Assembly: GCA_017984215.1 (NCBI GenBank)
Contig: JAGOAA010000018.1
Location: 1 to 43,968 of the forward strand
Source of the DNA: Cytophagaceae bacterium
GTDB taxonomy: Bacteria > Bacteroidota > Bacteroidia > Cytophagales > Spirosomataceae
Direction: 5' to 3'
DNA length: 43,968 nucleotides
Shown here: in pieces, positions 15,701 through 17,451 of the stretch
How the letters are laid out: every line of letters begins with the position of its first letter
How positions within the stretch are numbered: position 1 is the stretch's first letter
Made by a program: the position numbers and the translations under genes
The notes under the pieces: generated by a model
What the model was told of the DNA's origin: nothing
Database searches by the model: none
Seen by the model: the letters and a program-made list of their open reading frames with translations, nothing else

Positions 15701-16978
15701 ATGAAGGAAGAACTAGGATTTAGTACGGGAGAAGATCAAGAAACAGCTGTACTCGTAGCTGTGACGACGCAAAAACAAAATGCGGTGCAAACAGCTGAGT
15801 ATTTGGCAGAATTGGCCTTTTTGGCATCTACCTCAGGTGTCGTGACCTTGGCAAGTTTTACACAAAACTTAGCTAAACCCGATAATCGTACCTATGTAGG
15901 GAAGGGAAAATTGGATGACATTATCGCCTATGTCATTGCCAAAGATGTGGATATCATGATTTTTGATGATGATCTAAGTCCTTCGCAAGTCCGTAACATC
16001 GAATTAACCATTTCGTTGTTGGGCAAAGAAATCAAAGTACTCGACCGAAGCTTGTTGATCCTAAACATCTTTGCCCAACGGGCACAGACTGTTCAGGCTC
16101 GTACACAAGTGGAGTTGGCGCAGTATCAGTACATGTTACCTCGCTTAACGCGTATGTGGTCTCACCTTTCCAAGCAACGTGGTGGAGTGGGTATGCGTGG
16201 TCCAGGGGAAAAAGAATTGGAAACTGACCGACGTATTGCCAATGACCGTATTGCATTCTTGAAGGATAAGTTGACAGCGATTGACAAACAATCATTTACT
16301 CAAAGAAAGAATCGGGACCGCATGGTTCGTGTTTCGTTGGTGGGTTATACCAACGTAGGTAAATCAACCTTGATGACCAAGTTGGCCAAAGCAGATGTTT
16401 TTGCTGAAAATAAATTATTTGCGACCGTTGATTCTACGGTTCGCAAGGTGGTTTGGGATGGTATTCCATTCTTATTAACCGATACAGTTGGATTCATTCG
16501 TAAACTCCCTACCCTATTAATCGAATCATTTAAGTCGACCTTGGATGAGGTGCGTGAGGCAGATGTGTTATTACACGTTGTCGATATTTCACACCCCAAC
16601 TTCGAGGAGCAAATAGAAGTAGTTCAAGGCATCTTAAATGAAATGGGCGCTGGCGATAAACCTACGATCCTTGTTTTCAATAAGATTGACCTTTACAATG
16701 TGGAGGATGTGTTCTTTGAGGGAGCAGCAGTGGATGAAGATGGGAATCCAGAATTGACCAAAATGGAGCGTGTCACACGTTTCTTAAAGCAATCCCATTG
16801 GCAAACCAACACACCGAAGACCGTATTTATTTCGGCGGAACAACGTTCTAATTTAGCGGAATTACGTGAAATGGTGATGGATATCATTAAGGAAAAACAC
16901 TTCCAAATATTCCCGAACTGGCTGGATACCAACCACTTGATGGGATATAATGATGGGGTGGTACCGGAGGAGAGTTAA
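15701..16978 (+). CDS. hflX: GTPase HflX
   Basis: 425 residues. HflX binds the 50S subunit and splits stalled or heat-damaged ribosomes. The HflX N-terminal domain (~1-205) includes NRTYVGKGKLDDI near 62 and the Gly-rich KQRGGVGMRGPGEKELE near 158-174. The G domain has G1 GYTNVGKST at 215-223, G3 DTVGF at 261-265 and G4 NKID near 327. The start at 15701 (ATG) is 10 bp after the preceding terminator. A DEDGNPELTKMERV insertion between G4 and G5 appears lineage-specific. The stop codon is embedded in the first unit of a heptamer array. Confidence 0.95.
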   Translation: MKEELGFSTGEDQETAVLVAVTTQKQNAVQTAEYLAELAFLASTSGVVTLASFTQNLAKPDNRTYVGKGKLDDIIAYVIAKDVDIMIFDDDLSPSQVRNIELTISLLGKEIKVLDRSLLILNIFAQRAQTVQARTQVELAQYQYMLPRLTRMWSHLSKQRGGVGMRGPGEKELETDRRIANDRIAFLKDKLTAIDKQSFTQRKNRDRMVRVSLVGYTNVGKSTLMTKLAKADVFAENKLFATVDSTVRKVVWDGIPFLLTDTVGFIRKLPTLLIESFKSTLDEVREADVLLHVVDISHPNFEEQIEVVQGILNEMGAGDKPTILVFNKIDLYNVEDVFFEGAAVDEDGNPELTKMERVTRFLKQSHWQTNTPKTVFISAEQRSNLAELREMVMDIIKEKHFQIFPNWLDTNHLMGYNDGVVPEES

Positions 16979-17020
16979 GAGTTAAGAGTGAAGAGTGAAG
17001 AGTGAAGAATTAAGAGTGAA
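16972..17020 (+). repeat. Seven tandem 7-bp units at the hflX stop
   Basis: Units GAGTTAA, GAGTTAA, GAGTGAA, GAGTGAA, GAGTGAA, GAATTAA, GAGTGAA in perfect 7-bp register. The TAA of the first unit is the hflX stop codon. The tract is purine-only on the plus strand apart from T at the fourth or fifth position. It ends 14 bp before the tRNA. Confidence 0.9.
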
Positions 17021-17034
17021 GAGACAAGAATATT

Positions 17035-17106
17035 GGCGCTGTAGTTCAACGGATAGAATAGGCGTTTCCTAAACGCTAGATCCGGGTTCGATTCCCGGCG
17101 GGGCCA
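17035..17106 (+). tRNA. tRNA-Arg, anticodon CCU
   Basis: 72 nt. T-arm CCGGG-TTCGATT-CCCGG is perfect; D-arm GTTC...GAAT pairs with one G-U pair; anticodon arm GGCGT-TTCCTAA-ACGCT gives anticodon CCT, reading the AGG codon. The acceptor pairs GGCGCTG with CGGGGCC: five Watson-Crick pairs, one G-U and a G-G mismatch at position 4-69. A stem of GGCCCCG would pair perfectly, so the 5' strand looks altered. Discriminator is A and CCA is not encoded. Probably functional, as arms other than the acceptor are intact, but the copies downstream make a decayed or duplicated state possible. Confidence 0.85.
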
Positions 17107-17241
17107 CAAGACGCGAAGCGTCAGTCTAGAGGGAATAAGTCCGTAGGACAAACGCTAGATACGGCCGGGGTCGCGCCCGACTCGATTCCCGGCGGGGCCA
17201 CAAGACGCGAAGCGTCAGTCCAGAGGGAATAAGTCCGTAGG
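17088..17241 (+). repeat. 60-nt direct repeat spanning tRNA 3' end and flank
   Basis: 17088-17147 and 17182-17241 are 60 nt each and differ only at one base (T17127 against C17221). Each starts in the tRNA T-loop (TCGATTCCCGGCGGGGCCAC), continues into the palindrome GACGCGAAGCGTC (17110-17122 and 17204-17216), then AGAGGGAATAAGTCCGTAGG. Spacing between copies is 94 nt. The first copy's GTCC-GTA-GGAC palindrome at 17139-17149 is broken in the second. Confidence 0.9.
17150..17200 (+). pseudogene. tRNA-Arg 3'-half fragment, copy 2
   Basis: AAACGCTAGAT matches the anticodon 3' strand and variable region of the tRNA at 17035, then a 4-nt addition (ACGG), a T-arm split by an insert reading GTCGCGCCCGAC, and TCGATTCCCGGCGGGGCCA. 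There is no D-arm or acceptor 5' strand, so it cannot fold as tRNA. Confidence 0.72.
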
Positions 17242-17247
17242 GCGAAA

Positions 17248-17354
17248 AGAAGAGCGCCCTTTCTAAACGCTAGAGACGGCCGGGTTCGATTCCCGGCGGG
17301 GCCACCCAGAGGGAAGCAGAAGAGCGCCCCTTCTAAACGCTAGAGACGGCCGGG
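17248..17354 (+). repeat. 37-nt direct repeat preceding fragments 3 and 4
   Basis: 17248-17284 and 17318-17354 are 37-nt copies (AGAAGAGCGCCC, then T or C, then TTCTAAACGCTAGAG and ACGGCCGGG) with one mismatch (T17260 against C17330), 70 nt apart. They include the anticodon-stem-like and variable regions of the pseudo-tRNA fragments. Confidence 0.85.
17261..17304 (+). pseudogene. tRNA-Arg 3'-half fragment, copy 3
   Basis: TTCTAAACGCTAGAG, 4-nt addition, then an intact T-arm CCGGG-TTCGATT-CCCGG and CGGGGCCA. The anticodon loop reads TTTCTAA-like (TCT in place of CCT), but the 5' strand of the anticodon stem (GCGCCC) does not pair. No acceptor 5' strand is present. Confidence 0.72.
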
Positions 17355-17372
17355 GTCGCGCTCGAATCGATT
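17331..17372 (+). pseudogene. tRNA-Arg 3'-half fragment, copy 4 (most decayed)
   Basis: TTCTAAACGCTAGAGACGGCCGGGG, then GTCGCGCTCGAATCGATT: the same T-arm insert as copy 2 in diverged form. The acceptor 3' strand is gone and the sequence drifts into AT-rich flank. Confidence 0.62.
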
Positions 17373-17384
17373 ATATTCTGTAGA

Positions 17385-17451
17385 GACGTGATACCTCGCG
17401 TCAAATTCATTGTCAACAAAAAATACACGATCAGACGTGAAGCATCGCGTC
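17385..17451. repeat. Two 18-nt REP-like palindromes
   Basis: GACGTGA-TACC-TCGCGTC at 17385-17402 and GACGTGA-AGCA-TCGCGTC at 17434-17451. Same 7-bp stem (one G-T pair) with different 4-nt loops. The core GACG...CGTC is shared with the palindromes at 17110-17122 and 17204-17216. The rest of 17452-17515 holds no recognisable gene; it is the upstream region of the FemAB-like gene. Confidence 0.75.

Follow-up and report, generated by a model that had tools for sequence, protein, structure and literature searches.

Very small hairpins that spread are familiar from fungal mitochondrial DNA, where GC clusters and double-hairpin elements are examples. Repetitive hairpin elements have also been described from mitochondrial DNA with helices of 10, 15 and 18 bp, one copy lying within a ribosomal RNA gene (PMC2800124), and REP elements are palindromes of 20-40 bp that are tagged by GTAG or CGTC and present in high copy number (PMC3733652), in both cases according to the portions of these papers that are available. 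Islands integrated at tRNA genes, as described in the available portions of PMC4383910 and PMC9897764, are bounded by a complete tRNA gene and a 3' fragment on the same strand and often carry a tyrosine integrase. The locus presented here shares with such Islander-type islands a tRNA with 3' fragments of it and a subsite in the anticodon loop, and tandem cases are known there as well, but here the fragments form short tandem arrays with no islands between them, and many of them hold a hairpin in the T-loop (9 of 16 half-copies of tRNA-Arg(CCG)). Hairpin inserts in the T-loop are not described for tRNA islands or fragments in those portions, nor did the literature searched contain a description of such inserts, an absence that applies to those searches only.

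The window, that is, the whole stretch of 43,968 nt that was analysed, is an entire contig (C34) of a draft genome (2.43 Mb, 70 contigs, 86.6% complete). A coding sequence at 15701..16978 (+ strand), which we take to be hflX (GTPase HflX) and which possesses the Pfam domains GTP-bdg_N, GTP-bdg_M and MMR_HSR1, lies upstream of the only tRNA gene that ARAGORN called across the window, tRNA-Arg(CCU) at 17035..17107 (+). The original prediction of a nearly complete gene followed by at least three copies of its 3' half was confirmed, the gene being complete, with copy 2 at 17150..17201, copy 3 at 17264..17305 and copy 4 at 17334..17372, all on the + strand. As had also been noticed, these copies possess neither D-arm nor acceptor 5' strand, all three carry an ACGG stretch ahead of the T-arm, and only copies 2 and 4 contain a GTCGCGC-type insert. 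We find that this insert forms a GC-rich hairpin (GTCG-CGNN-CGAC) where the T-loop begins; the insert pattern GGGKTCGCGNNCGANTCGATT, allowing up to 3 mismatches, matched the window twice, in these two copies, against 0.05 matches expected.

The copies differ in how much of this structure they retain. Copy 2 is a displaced tRNA 3' half whose hairpin cassette (17166..17181, +; CGGG-GTCG-CGCC-CGAC) is followed by the T-loop remainder TCGATT, and the 42-nt spacer ahead of it (17108..17149, +) recurs behind it such that 17088-17152 and 17182-17246 are 95% identical. Copy 3 joins a unit-type left part (TAAACGCTAGAGACGG) to a normal T-loop without a cassette, has a best insert length of 4 nt when compared with the neighbouring tRNA, and looks like a hybrid of unit and tRNA produced by exchange with the tRNA. 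Copy 4 consists of a left part and a cassette (17351..17366, +; CGGG-GTCG-CGCT-CGAA, the final stem base mismatched) without the tRNA 3' end; it is 24 nt shorter than the final unit in the closest relative (G011, L004), and the missing 24 nt lie between two TCGATT repeats, deletion between which likely shortened it, judging from the sequence. By eye, the sequence GAGCGCCC at 17252..17259 (+), and again ahead of copy 4 at 17322..17329 (+), is tentatively a possible remnant of an anticodon-loop insert of the kind described below for another genus. The segments between copies measure only 28-62 nt, which leaves no room for an integrase. Outside the array, imperfect 7-nt tandem repeats (AGAGTGA/AGAGTTA) occupy 16971-17026, between hflX and the tRNA, with similar simple repeats in relatives, and GACGTGATACCTCGCGTC-like short palindromes lie downstream at 17384-17450, with similar ones in G011.

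Related genomes were searched for further units, as the original prediction had proposed, and units were found. With the array as query, 55 of 59 genomes (its own included) gave matches, many consisting of the tRNA alone and others also of 3'-half units; the motif CCGGGKTCGCGNNCGACTCGATTC (up to 2 mismatches) occurred in 25 of the 38 genomes of the genus, its reversed control in none; and the insert alone (up to 1 mismatch, without T-loop context) gave 49 matches in 23 of the 38. All 49 were inspected and each adjoins 3'-half sequence of tRNA-Arg(CCU) or (CCG), meaning that across these 38 genomes the insert was found only in tRNA-Arg copies; at L276 only the left part of the half-copy remains, and at L025 the match begins 6 nt ahead of the insert, at a contig end. 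The exact unit pattern was present in seven stretches labelled as uncultured Cytophagaceae, Spirosoma or Flavobacterium MAGs, a plasmid collection yielded nothing beyond short tRNA-like matches, and viral contigs contained no exact match. An assembly artefact of a repetitive tRNA locus, which had been raised as a possibility and to which a 70-contig draft lends itself, has a negligible probability, given that many independent assemblies, including the single-contig G007 and G385, have units at this tRNA.

Across these genomes the T-arm and 3' end of most units equal those of the host's own tRNA, despite differences between clades (...CTCGTCGGGGCCAC, ...CCCGCTGGGGCCAC, ...CCCGGCGGGGCCAC), which implies that units exchange sequence with the tRNA or form repeatedly; those that depart from this are truncated or mutated, as in G029, G004 and G016 and in copy 4 of the window. 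The insert itself is also well kept: among 62 units, which were found with a motif that allows 2 changes and so favours conservation, 19 of 21 columns hold one base in 58-62 of the 62, and two loop positions are free. Its net length in this genus is 14-15 nt rather than 16, and it looks inherited from an ancestor. The description of the copies as decayed was not supported, since the insert is conserved across the genus, its stem shows covariation in the second genus treated below and most 3' ends are those of the host tRNA; nor does it fit copy 3, with its normal T-loop behind a unit-type left part.

We distinguish half-copies with a normal T-loop (class I) from those with a hairpin insert (class II). 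An anticodon-arm pattern that is independent of the insert recovered 16 half-copies of tRNA-Arg(CCG), 9 with and 7 without the insert by reading. At tRNA-Arg(CCG), seven class I copies lie at the far end of a segment and have in common a 41-nt flank that is 0.83-1.00 identical to the reference, the flank in G008; such insert-free half-copies mark the ordinary attR ends of islands, of which some have a tyrosine integrase. In G018 this is a 508-aa tyrosine recombinase (Pfam) with homologues in G007 and G019, in all three about 1 kb or less from the tRNA, and no integrase was among the five open reading frames scanned in the G016 C14 segment, which has a plain attR. The G018 island (L040-L041, C41:244-271 kb) spans 27 kb at tRNA-Arg(CCG) and encodes, besides the tyrosine recombinase, a MerT-like protein, a multicopper oxidase, an E1-E2 ATPase and efflux genes.

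Comparing attL with attR revealed differences in two of seven islands (G018, G007), four being uninformative and one (G034) decayed. In both, the differences run from position 19 after GTAGG onward, with the two T-stem strands changed together, which places the crossover upstream, in the anticodon arm, for these two of seven. The relatives hold segments bounded by a complete tRNA and a fragment in the same orientation, with crossover inside a tRNA arm in the two diagnosable cases, as in Islander-type islands; an integrase is absent from the window array and present by Pfam in G018 and by homology in G007 and G019. The suggestion of integration scars with a core in the anticodon loop was supported in the form of attR-type halves at a hotspot and an anticodon-arm crossover in the diagnosable islands.

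Some class II units also point to islands. Of 12 at tRNA-Arg(CCG), 5 retain the island-type flank at 0.63-0.90 identity, against a maximum of 0.56 among 3000 random 41-mers, which indicates that these are attR as well. One of the 5 belongs to the window's own genome (C27), 6.2 kb from its tRNA, and 4 of the 6 open reading frames (at least 90 aa) of that 6.2-kb segment were scanned without finding an integrase. The cargo of segments ahead of class II units includes a sulfatase together with its maturase, an FG-GAP protein and an outer-membrane protein, again with no integrase among the scanned reading frames. Our first view, that every unit is an attR with an element-derived insert, was dropped, as the island attR lack the insert and the comparisons of attL with attR and of flanks spoke against it.

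A second genus of the family (g26) has the same hflX-tRNA-Arg(CCU) neighbourhood, the HflX of the window being 64% identical in amino acids to the protein adjoining this tRNA in G195. Here, copies occur upstream and downstream of the tRNA, and inserts occupy the T-loop, the anticodon loop and the junction of D-arm and anticodon arm. When reverse-complemented, the T-loop insert closely resembles the anticodon-loop insert, from which it differs at one of 19 positions in G385. Units can fold into long hairpins. Integron attC sites consist of GTTRRRY/RYYYAAC boxes in a folded inverted repeat, and we considered them because of these long hairpins. Pairing of the anticodon and T-loop inserts into such a long hairpin was also considered; in the window's genus the anticodon insert is missing or decayed. 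Palindromic inserts elsewhere in tRNA-Arg(CCT) copies were seen in two further genomes: at L161 (G051, another family; ~590-900) a pseudo-tRNA upstream of the real gene has a palindromic D-region insert and a T-loop that runs directly into a reading frame resembling, by eye, a GIY-YIG endonuclease, and at L163/L164 (G054) the 3' part of the tRNA lies ~50 kb off, with a ~28-nt GC-rich palindrome in the D-loop.

The g26 T-loops provided 33 distinct non-tRNA strings, 23 of which place 19-20 nt where 4 are normal and 5 of which, double inserts, place 35-36. Of the 31 strings of 12-40 nt, 22 contain a perfect 4-bp stem closed by a short loop, whereas 1000 shuffles gave 7.7 on average and 15 at most, this test covering the T-loop list alone, with the anticodon-loop and D-junction lists dropped for wrongly cut rows; 9 of 31 distinct T-loop inserts lack a perfect 4-bp stem by this simpler test. 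The layout is a 4-nt lead, a 4-bp stem, a loop that is usually CGNN, and the returning stem, about 16 nt in all. In 31 distinct 16-nt cassettes, registered by lead sequence and first loop base, which favours conservation, stem cells are paired in 96.0% versus 57.5% when shuffled, and the covariation score is 0.898 versus 0.193 (reached by 0 of 500 shuffles, and at most 0.404 when the register is slid). All four pairs have changed on both sides, and some cassettes are intermediates that have a G-T pair or a single mismatch.

Covariation of this kind raises the main rival to a mobile cassette, namely that selection maintains the units as structured RNAs, pseudo-tRNAs whose loops are capped by hairpins and which would act for example as decoys or regulators, stay beside the real tRNA and sometimes be co-transcribed with it. 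Besides the compensatory changes, this reading gains from the mere two loop positions that vary freely across the 62 units, from some g26 pseudo-tRNAs located between the end of hflX and the tRNA without a visible intervening terminator, and from three g26 stretches that on average fold better than their shuffles (z of -2.10, -2.70 and -3.60). However, the best of these (L125) extends over an adjacent terminator hairpin, which lowers its energy, copies 2 and 3 of the window fold no better than shuffles (z of 0.49 and -0.81), acceptor 5' strands are altered or missing in many units, the G024 array lies inverted on the opposite side of the tRNA, and the same cassette occurs within transposase genes and outside genes, as described next. 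Stem covariation could also result from RNA-level selection or from template-switch repair of palindromes, and overall we regard an RNA function as unlikely.

Searching for one g26 cassette, CGGGCGGCCGGTGCCG, exactly and without tRNA context, returned 52 matches, spread over 28 of 48 genomes, while the reversed control had none. All 52 were inspected: 39 lie in tRNA- or tmRNA-like copies (tRNA-Arg(CCT), Arg(ACG), Thr(GGT), Lys(TTT), and one 3' end that was not identified), 8 in transposase genes, 3 in intergenic sequence or gene ends and 2 in unidentified ORFs. Exact copies of one cassette type number 1-7 per genome that has it, and matches related by descent or tandem duplication inflate these counts, so that independent insertions are fewer than matches. 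In G447 a tRNA-Thr piece stands in five tandem 96-nt copies with a cassette in each. A pattern that includes the T-loop (up to 3 mismatches), searched order-wide, matched 18 of 390 genomes in 5 of 129 genera, none of which lies outside this family. The matched copies are of tRNA-Val, Pro, Thr, Lys, Arg and tmRNA; the pattern contains GTTCRANTCC, so its matches are tRNA-like by construction, unlike those of the exact-cassette search. Pattern matches with 2-3 mismatches elsewhere in the order or family (L111-L113, L123, L127-L130, L159, L160) proved to be unrelated DNA and were not counted as units.

In spare copies of all these tRNA types (Arg, Thr, Lys, Val, Pro) and of tmRNA, cassettes stand before GTTC. 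Comparing 45 copies of eight tRNA types with their neighbouring tRNAs gave a best insert length of 16 nt in 34, 15 nt in 6, 0 in 4 and 4 nt in 1. Lengths were measured leftwards from GTTC, and nearly all loci had been picked for holding a cassette; the comparison covers copies whose 15 nt to the left of the insert have at most 4 mismatches, and one of 26 loci (L264) has no row. In most of the 45, taking the insert away recovers the T-arm of the tRNA and leaves no extra repeat behind, which means no target-site duplication. One full-length tRNA-Thr gene with a cassette stands beside an intact tRNA-Thr (G453, L286), and two different hairpin cassettes are adjacent in one tRNA-Thr copy at L280 and L283 (G403, G444). 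The alternative in the original prediction, a small repeat that spreads with the tRNA 3' end, is supported in part: the ~16-nt T-arm insert would be what spreads, and not the tRNA 3' end.

Transposase genes provide sites without adjoining tRNA sequence. The reading frame moves by +1 across the cassette in 6 of the 8 transposase copies (L220, L222, L232, L235, L238, L282) and in both unidentified ORFs (L230, L278), as expected for a length of 16 nt, and it is unshifted in two transposase copies (L229, L285). Pfam covered 5 of the 8 loci, and the remaining three resemble them. At L232, positions 2-26 of the rve_3 integrase-core domain precede the cassette and positions 35-61 follow it in a different frame, and a relative of this gene (G448, L273) lacks exactly 16 nt at the site.

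These observations bear on two further explanations. One holds that the insert is part of the attP of a T-loop integrase, with the element supplying the hairpin and the tRNA-like left part and the host only the end; the insert does sit at the T-loop, named as an integrase crossover subsite in the available portion of PMC4383910, and some units have the island-type flank. We consider it very unlikely all the same, as the left part beside the insert tracks each host's tRNA (AATATG in G018/G033, for example), the inspected attR of islands with a recognised integrase are insert-free, identical cassettes occur in different tRNA types and the transposase-gene copies have no tRNA sequence beside them. 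The other takes the array for plain scars of repeated integration and excision, point decay and slippage, with meaningless inserts. Tandem spacers, the truncated copy 4 and the hybrid copy 3 would suit it, yet two genera with HflX proteins of 64% identity have this insert in the identical position, and this, the 49 matches in the genus, the covarying stems and the 16-nt insert length leave it little credibility.

Among described repeats, the cassettes share with REP elements (PMC3733652, available portion) short palindromes, an unpaired lead, inter- and intragenic positions and, for REP elements, a presumed mobilisation in trans, but they are only ~16 nt long, have the leads CGGG, TGGA or ACGG, number 1-7 exact copies, lie mostly in tRNA T-loops, and lack the GTAG or CGTC tag beside a 20-40-bp palindrome that marks REP/RAYT families. 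MITEs are recognised by a target-site duplication, which is missing here, the empty transposase site differing by exactly 16 nt. With the hairpin elements of PMC2800124 they have in common a very small, spreading hairpin of lineage-specific sequence; those elements are mitochondrial and, in the available portion of that paper, without a described T-loop target. The cassette would be a new and very small kind of palindromic mobile repeat.

Our preferred explanation, which we hold as probable, is that integration at a hotspot displaces tRNA 3' halves, which a mobile hairpin targeted to the T-loop then colonises. Islands, some with a tyrosine integrase, would enter tRNA-Arg genes, restoring the gene and pushing the old 3' half downstream as attR, a step seen in the relatives and presumed for the window, where no island remains. 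The islands would then be lost, and short attR-plus-spacer units would be tandemly duplicated and homogenised with the tRNA, as suggested by the repeats and by units that match the host's own T-arm. A ~16-nt hairpin cassette would insert without target duplication, preferably just before GTTC at the T-loop start, for which the many tRNA types, the 16-nt length, the frameshifts and the empty transposase site argue. Spare tRNA copies, being unneeded, would retain the insert, which in a sole working copy would presumably destroy the tRNA. What is observed are displaced halves, the anticodon-arm crossover of the informative islands, and a cassette family of ~16-nt hairpins that occupy one T-loop position in many tRNA types and form clean insertions in transposase genes. 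That cassettes move as such, prefer T-loops and are kept only by spare copies is what we infer.

A bolder version can be offered tentatively, at rather less than even confidence: the 16-base hairpin would be an independent mobile unit that seeks out the T-loop motif in tRNA and tmRNA genes, is moved in trans by a hypothetical enzyme, survives in spare copies and makes att remnants dead ends that fix islands. A plugged half could no longer restore a working tRNA; excision would then cease or kill the cell, and the island may become locked in place. For ICEBs1, insertions unable to excise are costly to element and host (PMC3715440, available portion), and island locking therefore deserves testing.

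For genome annotation, plugged copies can be mistaken for tRNA genes, as ARAGORN calls some as 89-92-nt tRNAs (L253, L286); at L253 (G365), a tRNA-Val(TAC) cluster, cassette-bearing copies are called as 92-nt tRNAs. For the family, our data suggest a tiny, choosy jumping sequence at one exact point of spare tRNA copies. If true, it would rank with the smallest mobile DNA units on record, and its target, the T-loop, exists in every genome; plugged copies would be a visible record of dispensable tRNA copies; and plugging of a displaced half, after which excision returns no working tRNA, would be a possible route to island permanence.
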